From positions 186,001-250,000 of the forward strand of contig NZ_CP065359.1 of NCBI RefSeq assembly GCF_019904295.1: 64,000 nucleotides of DNA. Direction: 5' to 3'. Source of the stretch: Ruegeria sp. SCSIO 43209. Its GTDB lineage: Bacteria; Pseudomonadota; Alphaproteobacteria; Rhodobacterales; Rhodobacteraceae. The notes beneath the pieces were generated by a model. That model worked only from the letters and a program-made list of their open reading frames with translations, was not told where the DNA came from and did no database searches. This document shows, in pieces, positions 7,972 to 13,385 of the stretch; position 1 is the stretch's first letter; every line of letters starts with the position of its first letter. The position numbers were made by a program, and so were the translations under genes.

Positions 7972-9258
7972 ATGGCTTTGGATGTCGACAGCGGTATCGC
8001 GTCGTATGAGGCGCCGGAAAAGGACCTCTACGAGATGGGTGAAATCCCCCCGATGGGGTACGTTCCCAAGCAAATGTATGCCTGGGCCATCCGGAAAGAG
8101 CGCCACGGTGAGCCAGACACAGCGATGCAGTTGGAAGTCGTTGATGTCCCGAAGCTGGACAGCCACGAAGTGCTGGTTCTCGTTATGGCGGCGGGTGTGA
8201 ACTACAACGGCGTCTGGGCATCGCTTGGCAAGCCGATCAGCCCGTTTGATGGCCACGGCCAACCCTTTCACATCGCAGGTTCAGATGCGTCGGGCATCGT
8301 CTGGGCGGTTGGTGACAAAGTGAAGCGCTGGAAAGTCGGCGATGAAGTCGTGATTCACTGCAACCAGGACGATGGCGATGACGAACACTGCAATGGTGGT
8401 GATCCGATGTATTCGCCCAGCCAGCGCATCTGGGGATATGAGACACCTGATGGCTCGTTCGCGCAGTTTACAAATGTTCAGGCACAGCAGCTGATGCCGC
8501 GTCCCAAGCACCTGACCTGGGAAGAAAGCGCCTGCTACACGCTGACCTTGGCAACAGCCTATCGGATGCTTTTTGGGCACGAGCCGCACGATCTGAAGCC
8601 GGGCCAGAACGTCCTGGTTTGGGGCGCATCGGGCGGTCTGGGCTCTTACGCGATACAGTTGATCAACACTGCGGGTGCCAATGCGATCGGCGTGATATCG
8701 GATGAAAGCAAGCGTGAGTTTGTGATGGACCTTGGCGCCAAAGGCGTCATCAACCGCAAGGATTTCAACTGCTGGGGCCAGCTGCCCACGGTGAATACTC
8801 CGGAATATGCTGAATGGTTCAAAGAAGCCCGCAAGTTTGGCAAGGCCATCTGGGATATTACCGGCAAAGGTGTGAACGTCGACATGGTGTTCGAGCACCC
8901 CGGCGAAAGCACGTTCCCGGTGTCCACTTTTGTCGTGAAAAAGGGAGGTATGGTTGTGATCTGCGCCGGGACCACTGGCTACAACCTGACCTTCGACGTG
9001 CGTTACATGTGGATGCACCAGAAACGCTTGCAGGGCTCGCATTTTGCGCATCTCAAACAGGCCTCGGCTGCAAACCAGCTAATGGTCGAGCGCCGCTTGG
9101 ATCCGTGCATGTCCGAAGTGTTCACTTGGCAGGATCTGCCTGAGGCGCACATGAAGATGATGCGCAACGAACACAAGCCGGGCAACATGTCGGTGCTGGT
9201 TCAGGCTCCGCATACAGGCATGCGCACCCTTGAAGAAGTATTGGCTGCCCGCGACTAA
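7972..9258 (+). CDS. ccr: crotonyl-CoA carboxylase/reductase
   Basis: NADPH-dependent reductive carboxylation of crotonyl-CoA to (2S)-ethylmalonyl-CoA, the key step of the ethylmalonyl-CoA pathway. 428 residues, MDR/zinc-independent alcohol dehydrogenase fold: N-terminal GroES-like domain with YNGVWASLGKP, nucleotide-binding WGASGGLGSYAIQL, and the C-terminal GSHFAHLKQASAANQLM typical of Ccr. The carboxylase signature residues cannot be verified without alignment, but the length and blocks match Ccr rather than simple enoyl-CoA reductases. A strong terminator hairpin follows. Ecm, the mutase later in the pathway, is encoded 1.6 kb upstream on the other strand. Confidence 0.96.
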   Translation: MALDVDSGIASYEAPEKDLYEMGEIPPMGYVPKQMYAWAIRKERHGEPDTAMQLEVVDVPKLDSHEVLVLVMAAGVNYNGVWASLGKPISPFDGHGQPFHIAGSDASGIVWAVGDKVKRWKVGDEVVIHCNQDDGDDEHCNGGDPMYSPSQRIWGYETPDGSFAQFTNVQAQQLMPRPKHLTWEESACYTLTLATAYRMLFGHEPHDLKPGQNVLVWGASGGLGSYAIQLINTAGANAIGVISDESKREFVMDLGAKGVINRKDFNCWGQLPTVNTPEYAEWFKEARKFGKAIWDITGKGVNVDMVFEHPGESTFPVSTFVVKKGGMVVICAGTTGYNLTFDVRYMWMHQKRLQGSHFAHLKQASAANQLMVERRLDPCMSEVFTWQDLPEAHMKMMRNEHKPGNMSVLVQAPHTGMRTLEEVLAARD

Positions 9259-9282
9259 CGGTCTCAGGCAAACAGCAGCTGC

Positions 9283-9325
9283 AACACCCGCAGGGCGCAC
9301 ACACGCCTTGCGGGTGTTCATCGTT
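9283..9325 (+). terminator. intrinsic terminator after ccr
   Basis: A 15-bp stem (AACACCCGCAGGGCG with its complement, one G-T wobble) and 6-nt loop CACACA lie 24 nt past the ccr stop, followed by a T-rich stretch CATCGTTTCT. Confidence 0.8.
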
Positions 9326-9468
9326 TCTATCGATGATTATGCATTTTCAATGCTTTAAGAAATCGCACCCCACTATTTCTGGGGAGTAGAAAGCAGCGAG
9401 TAGGCCGAATTAGTCTGCACATGTTATGGTTGTGTTAACCCTTCGTTAACTATTTCGGGGACACCCTG
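9319..9468 (+). promoter_or_regulatory. upstream region of the quorum-sensing locus
   Basis: 150 nt without a gene. It holds two small imperfect hairpins (GCATT/AATGC near 9339-9351 and CCCCA/TGGGG near 9367-9383), the CtrA-type site described separately, and a GGGGA ribosome site 8 nt before the small ORF at 9469. No convincing sigma-70 hexamer pair was found by eye. Confidence 0.4.
9435..9450 (+). promoter_or_regulatory. exact CtrA-type binding motif upstream of small ORF/luxR
   Basis: TTAACCCTTCGTTAAC matches the alphaproteobacterial CtrA full-site consensus TTAA-N7-TTAAC exactly, and is also embedded in a GTTAAC...GTTAAC inverted repeat. It ends 18 nt before the ATG of the small ORF, so it would overlap the core promoter or the transcription start. 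CtrA itself is not encoded in this window. Confidence 0.6.
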
Positions 9469-9687
9469 ATGGCGCAAAATGAGTGGATTTTGGACGTTCT
9501 GTCGGACCTCAACGCCTTTGCTGTGGCGAATGGGTTGAGCGCGCTGGCCGAGCAGCTTGACGACACAAGACTGATCGCCGCGGCCGAGATTGCGTCCTCA
9601 AAGGATGAGGCTTGCGCGCCCGCGAATGGGAAGAAAATTCGATTTGAGCCAGATCCTAGGGGATTTGGAAAGCACCAGCACGCTTGA
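9469..9687 (+). CDS. 72-aa protein encoded upstream of and overlapping luxR
   Basis: Small acidic, helical protein (MAQNEWILDVLSDLNAFA..., LAEQLDDTRLIAAAEIAS). A GGGGA ribosome site lies 8 nt upstream. The N-terminal ~45 residues look like a genuine folded segment; the C-terminal part, which overlaps luxR in another frame, is less convincing. I do not recognise a named domain. Position and overlap suggest translational coupling to luxR. No signal peptide or membrane span. Confidence 0.6.
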   Translation: MAQNEWILDVLSDLNAFAVANGLSALAEQLDDTRLIAAAEIASSKDEACAPANGKKIRFEPDPRGFGKHQHA

Positions 9688-10345
9688 CGAGCTGACCAGC
9701 GTAGCAGTCCAGTTGCGGGACAAGCTGCAAATTGACCACATGACATATCATTGGGTTGATGGGGCCGGGGATCAATACGGGTTCACGACTTATTCGGATG
9801 CCTGGGATGATCGGTATCGAGACAGGAATTATCATCGTATTGATCCGGTTATTCTGGGTTGTTTTCAGCGATTTCACGCTGTGGACTGGAAACAGCTGAA
9901 TTGGTCGGGCAAAGCAGTAAAGGCCTTCCTGCAGGACGCGCAGGAACATGGCGTCGGCAATCAGGGCTATTCGATCCCGCTGCGGGGGCCAGGCGGGCAA
10001 TTCGCGCTGTTTACGGTCAACAACAGCTGTGATGACATCACATGGCAGGCATTTGTCGAAACGTATGGCCGCGATCTCATATTGGTGGCGCATTTCCTCA
10101 ATCGAAAAGCGCTGGAATTTGCAAAAGAACGGCAGCCGGACAACATGCGGGGGCTCTCGCCCCGCGAAATCGATGCAATGACATTGCTGGCGCTGGGGTA
10201 TAGCCGAGCGCAGGTGGCGCACTCTCTTTCCATTTCTGAGCATACGCTCAGGGCCTATATCGAAAGCGCACGCTCAAAACTCGGTGCGCAAAATACGACT
10301 CATGCAATCGCCACTGCACTCAGTAGAGGATTAATAGTCGTTTAA
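9626..10345 (+). CDS. luxR: LuxR-family acyl-homoserine-lactone receptor/regulator
   Basis: Quorum-sensing transcription factor, ~239 residues from the chosen ATG (a TTG and another ATG lie just upstream in frame). The N-terminal autoinducer domain retains the invariant positions: Trp and Tyr in YHWVDGAGDQYGF, Asp-Pro in YHRIDPVI, Trp in VDWKQL and Gly in GNQGYSIPLRG. The C-terminal LuxR HTH reads LSPREIDAMTLLALGYS then ISEHTLRAYIESARSKLG. The start overlaps the preceding small ORF by about 60 nt and no strong ribosome site is visible, which argues for coupled translation. luxI follows 83 nt downstream. Confidence 0.9.
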   Translation: MGRKFDLSQILGDLESTSTLDELTSVAVQLRDKLQIDHMTYHWVDGAGDQYGFTTYSDAWDDRYRDRNYHRIDPVILGCFQRFHAVDWKQLNWSGKAVKAFLQDAQEHGVGNQGYSIPLRGPGGQFALFTVNNSCDDITWQAFVETYGRDLILVAHFLNRKALEFAKERQPDNMRGLSPREIDAMTLLALGYSRAQVAHSLSISEHTLRAYIESARSKLGAQNTTHAIATALSRGLIVV

Positions 10346-10346
10346 C
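10331..10346 (+). promoter_or_regulatory. second exact CtrA-type motif, upstream of luxI
   Basis: TTAATAGTCGTTTAAC is a second exact TTAA-N7-TTAAC match. It covers the last codons of luxR and abuts the lux-box palindrome. A TTAACC half-site follows at 10372-10377. Confidence 0.6.
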
Positions 10347-10362
10347 GACCGTACGGTGGTCT
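10343..10362 (+). promoter_or_regulatory. candidate lux box of luxI
   Basis: About 20 bp centred on the perfect palindrome ACCGTACGGT, with further symmetrical bases ACG/GGT around it, 76 nt from dyad centre to the luxI ATG. This is the expected position for a LuxR-AHL activator site of the luxI promoter. It begins inside the luxR stop codon and overlaps the CtrA-type motif by a few bases. Confidence 0.6.
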
Positions 10363-10377
10363 CACCTTAAATTAACC

Positions 10378-10427
10378 ACGTGTTCGTACCCCCTTTGTTC
10401 CAACTATGGACGATAAGGGGAACACGT
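10378..10427 (+). promoter_or_regulatory. luxI leader hairpin covering the ribosome site
   Basis: ACGTGTTC at 10378-10385 is perfectly complementary to GAACACGT at 10420-10427, and CCCTT (10391-10395) can pair with AAGGG (10415-10419) in the same stem, giving 13 bp with a 5-nt bulge on one side. The right arm contains the AAGGGG ribosome site of luxI and ends one base before the ATG. It forms only in transcripts that begin upstream of 10378. Confidence 0.45.
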
Positions 10428-10428
10428 C

Positions 10429-11067
10429 ATGTTGCGTTATTTGTATGCCGATGAGCTGCATAACTTTCCGGAATTGGCCAGGGGGATGTTCAGGGATCGC
10501 GCGGATCAGTTCAAAACCCGCCTTGGCTGGGATGTTAAGGTTAATGAAAAGGGGGAAGAGCGGGATCAGTATGATGACCTGAACCCGCTCTATGTGATTT
10601 GGGAAGAGGCAGATGGCAGCCATGGCGGGTCCATGCGGATCCTACCGACGACCGGTCCGGTCATGGTGAACGACATATTCGGACATCTCGCCGGGGGCAG
10701 TCCGATCCGAAGCCCACTAATCTGGGAGGTCACTCGCTTTTGCCTCTCGCGCAACGCCAGCGCTCATACTGCTGGGGCCATCATGCTGAGCGGCGGTGAG
10801 GTGATGGAAGGGTTTGGCCTGACCCACATAGCGGGCGTTTTTGATGCCCGCATGATCCGGATCTACCGTATGATCGGATCGTCTCCGGTGGTTTTGGGCA
10901 CCGAAGGGAAAGGGCGCGATCAGATCTCGGTCGGCCTGTGGCCTTATTCAGCGGATGATTGCAACCGTGTAGCAGCCCGCGCAGGCATCCCGCGAGAGTT
11001 GTCGCGCCTGTGGTTCAAGACAGCATTTGGCCATGGCGCACAGCACCGGTTCGCTTTGTCGGCATAA
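10429..11067 (+). CDS. luxI: acyl-homoserine-lactone synthase
   Basis: Makes N-acyl-homoserine lactone signals from S-adenosylmethionine and acyl-ACP. 212 residues. The conserved LuxI positions are present: Arg/Phe in MFRDRADQFKTRLGW, the acidic pair in YDDLNPLYVIW, Arg in SMRILPTTGP, and Glu/Arg in WEVTRFCLS. The acyl chain length cannot be deduced. Directly downstream of luxR, apparently from its own promoter with a lux box. The helicase gene begins 60 nt later. Confidence 0.95.
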   Translation: MLRYLYADELHNFPELARGMFRDRADQFKTRLGWDVKVNEKGEERDQYDDLNPLYVIWEEADGSHGGSMRILPTTGPVMVNDIFGHLAGGSPIRSPLIWEVTRFCLSRNASAHTAGAIMLSGGEVMEGFGLTHIAGVFDARMIRIYRMIGSSPVVLGTEGKGRDQISVGLWPYSADDCNRVAARAGIPRELSRLWFKTAFGHGAQHRFALSA

Positions 11068-11103
11068 GCATACGGAAAAACCAATCGGCATCTGGCAGCG
11101 CGC

Positions 11104-11127
11104 GGCGCGTCCCTGTAGGGTCGCGCC
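11104..11127 (+). promoter_or_regulatory. near-perfect hairpin ending at the helicase start codon
   Basis: GGCGCG and CCCT are mirrored by AGGG and CGCGCC with a single T-T mismatch, giving a 24-nt inverted repeat whose last base directly precedes the ATG of the helicase gene. AGGG, the only ribosome-site-like word there, is inside the stem. Confidence 0.5.
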
Positions 11128-12660
11128 ATGTCCTTGCCCCAAGTCACATTTTCCGAAGATCAGGCTGCCGCTTTTGACAACATTGCCGAGATGTTGCGAG
11201 GTGCCGGAGTAGACCTTGAAGACGACGCTCTGCTGAAACTGCCCGGCAACGGAAAGTCTGGTGTGATGGCTGTTATTGGCAAGGCTGGATCGGGCAAAAC
11301 CCTGTTGCTGGCAGAGCTTTACAAAGCTTTGGCCGAGACGGGGGTCAACCTGATCTCGGGTGATTTCGAAAGCCGCAAATCCCGCGACAAGCGCAGCCTT
11401 GCGATCCTCGCGCCGACGAACAAGGCCGCCAGCGTATTGCGGCTGCGTGGGGTGCCCGCGACCACGATACACCGTATCCTCTATACGCCTGTTTACGACC
11501 CTGAATACGAGCGGATCGCCGAATGGCTAGCGGGCAATGACGAACGGCCCGAGATCGAAGGGCTGACAGACGAAGCGCTGGACCGCGCAGCCGCGTTCTA
11601 TGCCAACAACAAATCCATCCCCGGTGCGCTGGCCGCTGCTGGGTTGCGCGGTTCGGATTTCATCACCGGCTGGAAACGTCGGGAAGAGCCGCTGGATATC
11701 GGTTTTGTGGACGAAGCCTCGATGCTAGACGACCGGCAATTCGAGGATCTAAAGGAAATCTTTCCAACCTTGTTGCTATTTGGTGACCCGGCGCAGTTGG
11801 CGCCGGTCAATCAATCGGGCTCGATGGTGTTCGACGGGTTGCCAGAGCCGCGCAAACAAATCCTGCATCGAGTGCATCGGCAAACTGCGGACAACCCGAT
11901 CCTAGACCTCGCCCATGCTCTGTCCGATCCGGTCATGGGGTTTGAGGATTTCGAACGTCTGATCGAGGACACTGCCCGAAAGGATGACCGCGTTGTCTGG
12001 GGACAGCGGGTAGAAGTTGATCTGATGGCGCGCAGCCCGGTTCTTGTCTGGCGCAATGCGACCCGAATCCGGCTGATTCAGGCGTTCCGCACCGTACATG
12101 GCGCGCCGGAAACTGAACTACTGGAAGGGGAACCGTTGATTTGTGACGGCATTGAGCTGCCGTTGAAGCACCGCAAAAAGCGGCTGGACCTTGAGGCGCG
12201 CGGGCTGATTAAAGGCGCGCAGGTCATCTATCTTGGCCCTGGTCGCAAGCCGGGTTTTTCGCGGTTGCATGTGATGGGGGCCGAAGACCCTCAGGTCTCG
12301 GCGGCGTCGATCGTGCAGATTGAAAAGCCCGATGAGGAGGAGCCGTTCATTCCCTATGCTGCCCGTATGGGGGCAACGTTCCTGCATGGTGCCGCTGTGA
12401 CGATCCATAAGGCGCAAGGGTCGCAATGGGACACGGTTCAGGTCTTTGCGCCAGACATCTACGCAGCCGCCCGCATGGGCCGTACTGAGGCCGGGCAACC
12501 GTTGTGGAAGCGCCTAGCTTATGTCGCCATAACCCGCGCACAGGAGAGGCTAATTTGGGTAGTGCGGAACCGCTTGTCGAAACCGACCCACCCATTGCGT
12601 GTGGATGACCTGCGTGCGGTTGCGGCACCATCCCTGACATTGGAGGCGGAAGAGACATGA
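11128..12660 (+). CDS. RecD-like ATP-dependent DNA helicase (UvrD/RecD superfamily 1)
   Basis: 510-residue SF1 helicase. Motif I is GKAGSGKTLLLAEL (about residues 51-64), motif II is DEASMLDDRQF, then GDPAQLAPV (motif III) and the C-terminal UvrD_C_2 block TIHKAQGSQWDTV with YVAITRAQERLIWV. These are the order and spacing of the short RecD-like/viral-type helicases annotated as AAA family ATPases, not the RecBCD subunit (no recB or recC nearby). Likely function is unwinding of DNA in repair or recombination; specificity unknown. The stop codon overlaps the start of the following SDR gene (ATGA), so the two are translationally coupled. Confidence 0.85.
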   Translation: MSLPQVTFSEDQAAAFDNIAEMLRGAGVDLEDDALLKLPGNGKSGVMAVIGKAGSGKTLLLAELYKALAETGVNLISGDFESRKSRDKRSLAILAPTNKAASVLRLRGVPATTIHRILYTPVYDPEYERIAEWLAGNDERPEIEGLTDEALDRAAAFYANNKSIPGALAAAGLRGSDFITGWKRREEPLDIGFVDEASMLDDRQFEDLKEIFPTLLLFGDPAQLAPVNQSGSMVFDGLPEPRKQILHRVHRQTADNPILDLAHALSDPVMGFEDFERLIEDTARKDDRVVWGQRVEVDLMARSPVLVWRNATRIRLIQAFRTVHGAPETELLEGEPLICDGIELPLKHRKKRLDLEARGLIKGAQVIYLGPGRKPGFSRLHVMGAEDPQVSAASIVQIEKPDEEEPFIPYAARMGATFLHGAAVTIHKAQGSQWDTVQVFAPDIYAAARMGRTEAGQPLWKRLAYVAITRAQERLIWVVRNRLSKPTHPLRVDDLRAVAAPSLTLEAEET

Positions 12661-13385
12661 AGACGATCATAGTGACCGGTGCAAGCTCGGGCATAGGCCG
12701 CGCCACCGCCGAGCTGTTTCTGTCAGAAGGATGGACTGTCGGGCTTCTGGCCCGCAGCGCTGACAAACTTCTTGCTATGGCACAGCATAACGCCTCGGCG
12801 ATCCCGCTGGTTGCCGATGTGACTGACCCGGATGCCGTTGCAAACGCCTATACTGCATTCACCCGACAGACCGGGCGACTGGACGTGCTGTTCAACAATG
12901 CCGGGATTTTTGCCCCTGGTGGCACCATCGACGAGATCGCGCTTGAGGATTGGTACGGCTCGGTCAATGTGAACCTGAACGGCATGTTCCTGTGTGCACG
13001 GGCTGCATTTGCTGCGATGCGGGCTCAGGCGCCGCAGGGGGGGCGTATCATAAACAACGGTTCAATCGCTGCTCATGTGCCGCGCCCGAACTCGGTGCAT
13101 TATTCTGCGACGAAACACGCGATTACCGGTCTGACGCGCAGCCTTTCTCTGGACGGGCGGAGTTTTGGAATTGCCTGTGGTCAGATCGACATCGGAAATG
13201 CGCGCACCCCGATGGTGCATGGGCTGGTCGATGAGGCGCTTGCTGAAGGCCGCGACCCTGATCCCACCATGGATGTCGGGGATGCCGCCCGCTCGGTACT
13301 GCATATGGCCGAACTGCCGCTTGAGGCGAATGTGCAGTTCATGACCGTTATGGCCACGACCATGCCCTATATCGGTCGCGGGTGA
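12657..13385 (+). CDS. short-chain dehydrogenase/reductase
   Basis: 242-residue classical SDR. Visible: NAD(P)-binding TGASSGIGRATAELF, DVLFNNAGIF, and the catalytic Tyr/Lys in HYSATKHAITGLTRSLSLDG. Substrate unknown. It overlaps the helicase stop by 4 nt, yet nothing in either protein suggests a shared pathway. Ends 3 nt from the convergent TIGR02186 gene. Confidence 0.88.
   Translation: MKTIIVTGASSGIGRATAELFLSEGWTVGLLARSADKLLAMAQHNASAIPLVADVTDPDAVANAYTAFTRQTGRLDVLFNNAGIFAPGGTIDEIALEDWYGSVNVNLNGMFLCARAAFAAMRAQAPQGGRIINNGSIAAHVPRPNSVHYSATKHAITGLTRSLSLDGRSFGIACGQIDIGNARTPMVHGLVDEALAEGRDPDPTMDVGDAARSVLHMAELPLEANVQFMTVMATTMPYIGRG

Follow-up and report, generated by a model that had tools for sequence, protein, structure and literature searches.

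The luxRI locus of Ruegeria sp. SCSIO 43209 raises the question of whether the cell-cycle regulator CtrA acts on AHL synthesis and, if so, through which sites and on which synthase. The pattern TTAA-N7-TTAAC is the known CtrA motif, and a first-pass annotation of the window (the whole stretch of 64,000 nucleotides analysed here) had placed two exact copies of it around a luxR/luxI pair, TTAACCCTTCGTTAAC at 9435-9450 (site 1) and TTAATAGTCGTTTAAC at 10331-10346 (site 2), both on the forward strand. Both copies were recovered at these positions, and a search of the whole 64 kb found the motif at these two places only, in agreement with the annotation, which had seen no further copy in the intergenic stretches. 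Site 1 also matches on the reverse strand, at 9434-9449, and is thus nearly palindromic, so that the window holds three strand-wise matches in comparison to a shuffle mean of 0.08, with none of 100 shuffles reaching three. Genome-wide there are 22 strand-wise matches at 16 distinct places. The chromosome contig accounts for 14 of these places, and with that number the expectation is about 0.05 pairs lying 912 bp apart or less. The results also showed that the motif is not over-represented genome-wide (22 matches versus 30 for a reversed control pattern) and that the N7 spacing is not singled out across the genome, N6 and N7 each giving 12 among the matches listed. These frequencies would suit the view that the sites are chance matches, or are shared through ancestry without function, the genomes of the genus being close relatives; as the reversed control pattern is no rarer, frequency proves nothing and the case rests on conservation.

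The features of the locus are collected in Table 1. The gene order is a crotonyl-CoA reductase-type zinc dehydrogenase gene (ccr), a gene of 72 codons (here called the small gene), luxR, luxI, a helicase gene and a putative short-chain dehydrogenase gene, and the luxRI pair therefore stands between the same neighbours as topology B (B1) in the Roseobacter account of Cude and Buchan (PMC3824088), namely crotonyl-CoA reductase before luxRI, and helicase and short-chain dehydrogenase after it. The flanking genes are alike in the two descriptions, whereas the small gene and the box are described only here, as far as the available parts of that account go. The named relatives of the LuxI protein are mostly from Ruegeria (94% identity to R. 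conchae TW15 and 92% to Ruegeria sp. KLH11), and KLH11 carries a second LuxI copy at 80% (L090) without a luxR gene, as described for sscI of that strain (PMC3907830, available in part); based on these two observations the pair was assigned to the SsbRI type. The SsbRI locus of KLH11 itself (L059) is orthologous, with the LuxI at 92%, the same two boxes and the small gene. In four genomes of the genus (L155, L156, L158 and L159) an additional sscI-like luxI, at 77-84% identity, was seen with neither luxR nor small gene in the stretch.

Table 1. Coordinates of the features of the luxRI locus, as positions in the window.
Feature	Position	Strand	Basis or remark
ccr, crotonyl-CoA-reductase-like zinc dehydrogenase, upstream neighbour	7972..9258	+	Pfam ADH_N, ADH_zinc_N; topology B landmark
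GGGGA element TTTCTGGGGAGTAGAAA, conserved upstream promoter element	9376..9392	+	about 54 nt before box
Predicted extended -10 (TG-T-TATGGT)	9422..9430	+	family alignment
Site 1, CtrA-type box TTAACCCTTCGTTAAC	9435..9450	+	about -1 to +14 of predicted transcription start
Small gene, 72 aa, overlaps luxR start	9469..9687	+	conserved, without family name
luxR (SsbR type); alternative start TTG at 9590	9626..10345	+	Pfam Autoind_bind 9.4e-36, GerE 1.2e-11
Site 2, CtrA-type box TTAATAGTCGTTTAAC over last luxR codons and stop codon	10331..10346	+	codon conservation
GC-rich dyad ACCGTACGGT between luxR stop and luxI	10348..10357	.	sequence reading
CtrA-type half-site TTAACC	10372..10377	+	57 nt before luxI start
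luxI (SsbI type AHL synthase)	10429..11067	+	Pfam Autoind_synth 4.6e-23
ATP-dependent helicase, downstream neighbour	11128..12660	+	Pfam AAA_30, UvrD_C_2; topology B landmark
Short-chain dehydrogenase	12657-13385		ORF reading

The second LuxI of the genome is 39% identical, has its own luxR, and adjoins a putative trigger factor gene, as in topology A; within the 4 kb examined, this SsaRI-type pair showed no TTAA-N7-TTAA. Around the SsbRI-type pair, a terminator-like inverted repeat follows ccr at 9283-9318 (AACACCCGC...GCGGGTGTT) and might insulate the luxRI promoter. An Rfam search over 9200-11150 gave one match below threshold, which was taken as chance, and at the limits used neither 9200-11200 nor the small protein had a match in the plasmid collection.

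Two sets of loci were used for the conservation of site 1. The genus set comprised 54 genomes, all 54 with a luxI match, and was reduced to 53 loci with upstream sequence since the G046 locus is cut at a contig end; TTAA-N7-TTAA was exact at site 1 in all 53. The luxI gene is damaged in four genomes (G005, G008, G040 and G048), and site 1 and the small gene are kept in all four (L161, L162, L160 and L150, respectively), including G008, which has lost the greater part of luxR and luxI, perhaps too recently for the box and the small gene to have gone as well. The family set was built on an even sample of 295 family genomes, of which 209 were found to encode the small protein. From the top 117 rows, ranked by E-value, 100 loci were taken; of those passed over, two belong to the same genus, and the other fifteen, some of them near contig ends, were omitted without a fixed rule. 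An exact TTAA-N7-TTAA was observed within the 100 nt before the small gene in 81 of these 100 loci from other genera, in comparison to 0, 3, 2, 4, 2, 0, 0 and 0 per 100 for the spacings N3, N4, N5, N6, N8, N9, N10 and N11, while under a Markov model of these stretches 0.55 loci per 100 would carry a box, and at most 4. When one mismatch was allowed the number rose to 89, and in 88 of these 89 a gap of 19-24 nt separates the end of the box from the start codon of the small gene, the spacer sequence being varied. An extra set of 20 loci, drawn from LuxI matches mainly outside the first 100, contained 3 loci without the small gene, 1 that was cut and 16 with the small gene, and of the 15 readable upstream 11 had the exact box and 4 did not.

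The conservation in orthologous lux loci on which the annotation had let its proposal depend is thus present for site 1, in all 53 loci of the genus and in 81 of the 100 from the family. The recurrence of the box in other genera, at one spacing and with varied spacer sequence, contradicts chance or functionless ancestry for site 1, and together with the constraint on synonymous changes within the motif of site 2 (see below) it makes such an explanation highly improbable. The view that the conservation pattern of the sites points to selection, and to the luxRI operon, is supported by these alignments. A ctrA gene is encoded in the same genome (C1:1423393-1424064, 93% to the CtrA probe), and ctrA was found in 38 of the 38 family genomes checked, including all 19 whose loci are without an exact box, which rules out that the box-less members of the family are simply CtrA-less. 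The promoter of ctrA (L264) has no full box but carries a half-site, TTAACCATT, roughly 56 nt ahead of the earliest possible ctrA start, in line with the positive feedback on ctrA published for KLH11 (PMC3692519, available in part).

To what the box is tied can be read from the loci in which the genes have come apart. In the family set, luxR and luxI follow the small gene in 98 of 100 loci, and in 81 of the 81 with an exact box; conversely, 160 of the 165 genomes with a topology-B LuxI have the small gene. Among the 209 small-gene genomes, 49 had no topology-B LuxI at 1e-40, of which 48 were searched (G122 was omitted, being already among the 100), and the best 30 of the 48 loci were examined, two of their genomes (G175 and G278) being also among the 100. 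Of these 30 loci, 24 had neither luxR nor luxI in the stretch, and the box was present in none of the 24, whereas the small gene stood between ccr and the helicase gene in all 24; a further 3 had box and luxR, and 3 had luxR without an exact box. The other promoter elements behaved in the same way: a GGGG-type element was found in 86 of 99 loci with luxR versus 2 of 24 without (shuffles 5.4 and 2.8), its offsets clustering at -52 to -55 from the box, and the extended -10 pattern TG.TA...T in 71 of 99 versus 3 of 24. Judged from these alignments, the box, the GGGGA element and the -10 appear as a module that is tied to luxRI and from which the small gene is separable. It should be read with this comparison that the luxRI-less loci are weaker and probably more distant small-gene matches, that most of the promoter and not the box alone is absent from them, and that they may stand for few independent events. 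The GGGGA element was also considered as an SsaR site, for which no support was found, CATTT-N-TGGGG being absent from the ssaRI region of the same genome; a single further exact copy of TTTNTGGGGAGTNGAAA was found in the genome, next to a putative transposase gene on contig C2.

So close an association would also be expected if the box were not a CtrA site at all and served as the operator of SsbR or of another regulator linked to luxRI, given that all 81 exact boxes of the family set are followed by luxR and luxI and none of the 24 luxR-less loci has one, and LuxR operators are often palindromic, as this box nearly is. This explanation is quite improbable. The motif is that of CtrA and also precedes non-lux genes of the genome, some of which look like CtrA-type targets, including a probable motB and a divL-like kinase gene (names from sequence alone); the luxR2I2 operon of Dinoroseobacter shibae depends on CtrA (PMC4046655); and SsbR does not activate ssbI in KLH11 (PMC3907830), both according to the parts of these papers available to us. 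The pair can moreover be kept without the exact box or the small gene, as in Leisingera (L110), G290 and G245, and as in all seven genomes of the genus of G127, which is Phaeobacter porticola by plasmid identity.

How CtrA and quorum sensing are wired in these bacteria has been worked out in part, and the statements that follow are those of the available parts of the cited papers. Mutants of D. shibae in ctrA, chpT or cckA express less luxR2I2 and lose the C14 AHLs, luxI1 being unaffected in ctrA mutants (PMC4046655). The same paper listed CtrA sites at a luxRI pair of R. pomeroyi in 2014, and its survey described CtrA control of quorum-sensing genes as scattered and as having evolved several times. 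A cascade from LuxI1 to CtrA to luxI2 and luxI3 is published, and when AHL was added to a D. shibae luxI1 mutant, ctrA rose at once and luxR2I2 from 20 minutes (PMC6473078). In KLH11, ctrA expression is down about 25-fold in the ssaI mutant, and the authors speculate on feedback from the relay to ssaRI (PMC3692519); ssbI transcription is not significantly affected in that mutant (PMC3907830). Since ssbI shows no significant change despite the drop in ctrA, the KLH11 data argue against a strong activating effect of CtrA on ssbI in Ruegeria.

The D. shibae operon is directly comparable to the present locus. Genome G088 is D. shibae DFL 12, as a stretch of 5001 bases agrees at every position with the 190506-base plasmid of that strain, and its luxR2I2 locus (L220) is orthologous, with the same order (ccr end, small gene, luxR, luxI, helicase start), a CtrA-type box in the operon promoter and the extended -10. 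Two differences were observed: the luxR stop region of D. shibae, GTCGTCTAA, holds no full box, unlike site 2 here, and the authors predict two perfect CtrA sites at the luxR2 promoter (PMC4046655, available in part), where we read one near-palindromic box. The small gene does not figure in the parts of the D. shibae papers at hand. From the sites to AHL synthesis, the arrow drawn in the annotation is supported by the conserved sites and the D. shibae mutants, and it is not new, having been published in 2014 (PMC4046655, available in part). The premise that quorum sensing acts upstream of the CckA-ChpT-CtrA relay is also borne out, the SsaRI/LuxRI1 pair standing upstream in KLH11 and D. shibae in the published parts at hand. 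The proposed closing of a loop found no support: it is SsaRI/LuxRI1 that stands upstream of CtrA, the D. shibae ctrA mutants leave luxI1 unaffected, and the SsaRI-type pair of the present genome is box-less within the 4 kb examined. The wiring runs as a cascade and does not loop back on a single synthase.

The position of the box within the promoter sits uneasily with this genetics. In 64 of the 89 aligned loci TG.TA...T precedes the box start by exactly 13 nt, the values at other offsets being next 14 and 8 (running into the box) and then 6, and a conserved extended -10 at this distance would put the box at about -1 to +14 of the predicted start. Ranked by plain likeness to TATAAT, a -10 within the box does equally well (3.38 at offset -1 and 3.37 at -10), and such a -10 would likewise place the box over the promoter core. 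No conserved -10 was found in the 19-24 nt between box and start codon, which hold a ribosome site only and leave no room for a downstream -10. By prediction, the conserved -10 is upstream of the box, in contrast to a classical CtrA-activated promoter, which has the box at -35 and the -10 downstream. By the rule known from Caulobacter, a CtrA box just downstream of the -10 is in a repressor's place, and direct activation is left without a ready mechanism by this arrangement. The repressor-like box position and the net activation in D. shibae genetics thus contradict each other, and the effect in Ruegeria may be of either sign.

CtrA bound at site 1 might accordingly repress by occluding the start and keep luxRI off as long as CtrA~P is high; the lower luxR2I2 expression of the ctrA mutant of D. 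shibae would then be an indirect effect. The promoter geometry just described fits this proposal, as does the steady ssbI transcription in KLH11 while ctrA falls, which is what an absence of activation would give (PMC3907830, available in part). It is nonetheless unlikely, for two reasons. In D. shibae the addition of AHL to the luxI1 mutant is followed by ctrA at once and by luxR2I2 from 20 minutes (PMC6473078, available in part), and Phaeobacter provides a natural comparison. In the parts of PMC12363192 available to us, pgaRI1 of P. inhibens, a homologous luxRI operon according to the authors, is unchanged in ctrA, chpT and cckA deletions, whereas the D. shibae ortholog responds; this absence of a CtrA effect goes with the absence of the exact box in 7 of 7 genomes of the genus, where an indirect positive effect could have been expected to persist. 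The comparison amounts to one pair of species, with the absence of the box read at the level of the genus, in those seven genomes. Another synthase gene of P. inhibens, pgaI2, falls about fourfold in the ctrA, chpT and cckA mutants, and the authors term the inverse regulation remarkable (PMC12363192, available in part); as CtrA controls pgaI2 there instead, the link between CtrA and quorum sensing can move. Direct action of CtrA with a positive net effect was given the highest weight, as the simplest indirect route is disfavoured by the comparison with Phaeobacter.

We therefore favour, with a probability of about two in three, the reading that site 1 is a CtrA site which would couple the SsbRI-type luxRI pair to the CckA-ChpT-CtrA relay, in a cascade with added inputs at luxI. 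One promoter before the small gene, composed of the GGGGA element, the extended -10 and the box at the start, would drive the small gene, luxR and probably luxI, and CtrA, presumably by direct binding, would set its output from site 1. In Ruegeria, site 2 and the luxI half-site would add CtrA input at luxI itself. Quorum sensing of the SsaRI/LuxRI1 type would raise CtrA and CtrA would set SsbRI/LuxRI2, as published for D. shibae, and the second AHL signal would thereby come under the control of the cell-cycle relay; the start point is a prediction, and the net effect in Ruegeria is assumed to be positive, as in D. shibae.

The second site differs from the first in both place and breadth. Taken as intergenic in the annotation, site 2 instead overlaps the end of luxR: its first TTAA consists of the codon TTA and the next base, and its second of the last base of the last codon and the TAA stop. 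It was found in 52 of 54 genus loci, being absent from G026, which has the leucine codon CTG, and from G008, in which luxR and luxI are mostly deleted. Among the 52 genus luxR genes the codons that carry the motif are nearly invariant (TTA in 51, GTT in 52 and TAA in 52), whereas the spacer's own valine codon varies between GTG (30 genes) and GTC (22 genes), and at other conserved luxR valines the commonest codon is used in 37-60% of genes. Fifty-one of the 88 TTA codons in all 52 luxR genes fall at the site 2 position. The picture is blurred by the spacer's isoleucine codon, which is ATA in 47 of 52 genes, and by two leucine and two threonine codons close to the luxR start that are equally invariant, although these four lie within the overlap with the small gene. 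In general, this codon usage shows site 2 to be under apparent synonymous constraint in Ruegeria. Outside the genus site 2 is rare, a full box within 130 nt of luxI being found in only 4 of 97 family loci, and what recurs there is the half-site: TTAAC was found at -85 to -35 before luxI in 71 of 97 loci versus 16 at -130 to -80, and TTAACC in 54 versus 9. A CG-rich element recurs in the family logo 16-22 nt before this half-site, and many relatives carry a different GC-rich, partly palindromic stretch at the position of the ACCGTACGGT dyad.

The CtrA-to-luxRI arrow, the R. pomeroyi sites and the LuxI1-CtrA-LuxI2 cascade were thus known before (PMC4046655 and PMC6473078, available in part), and what is brought out here is the breadth of box conservation, the odd position of the box and the small gene behind it. 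The arrow to AHL had been shown in one strain, and our survey suggests that the box is the usual state of a common roseobacter luxRI operon; the alignments would suggest one widely kept topology B module instead of the scattered, repeated evolution of the 2014 survey. Going further, we put forward as a tentative idea, somewhat short of probable, that topology-B luxRI operons across the family widely share a promoter module of GGGGA element, extended -10 and start-point box, present with luxRI wherever the operon follows the separable small gene between ccr and the helicase gene, and that CtrA~P, acting from the start point, is a gate that times the second AHL. If this is true, the second AHL would be made only in a certain window of CtrA activity and would constitute a cell-cycle-timed quorum signal. 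D. shibae, with box and CtrA dependence, and P. inhibens, CtrA-independent and of a box-less genus, offer a natural experimental pair for such questions.

The small gene, found between ccr and the helicase gene, encodes a conserved protein of 72 aa without a family name, with the consensus WILDVLxDLxxFAxxNGL...LAEQLDDT. The median dN/dS was 0.06 for codons 1-43 (1283 pairs) and 0.45 for codons 44-52, which indicates purifying selection. At E <=0.001, 1507 relatives were found, none with a Pfam domain among the 120 matches listed; Pfam on 26 members gave nothing better than E 0.058, Pfam and NCBIfam gave no family for it, and the open-licence papers searched yielded nothing on the small gene or on the position of the box. 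The small protein was also considered as a CtrA-induced factor that would account for the lack of detectable AHL in KLH11 ssaI mutants, in which ssbI is transcribed, a proposal that is weakened by the presence of the gene at its ccr-helicase place in 24 of the 24 luxR-less loci; it may still hold for species with luxRI. An AlphaFold2 model gave helices at residues 6-20 and 24-49, with a mean pLDDT of 97-99 for residues 11-40 and of 77.7 overall, and the protein is thus predicted to form a helical hairpin with a disordered tail.
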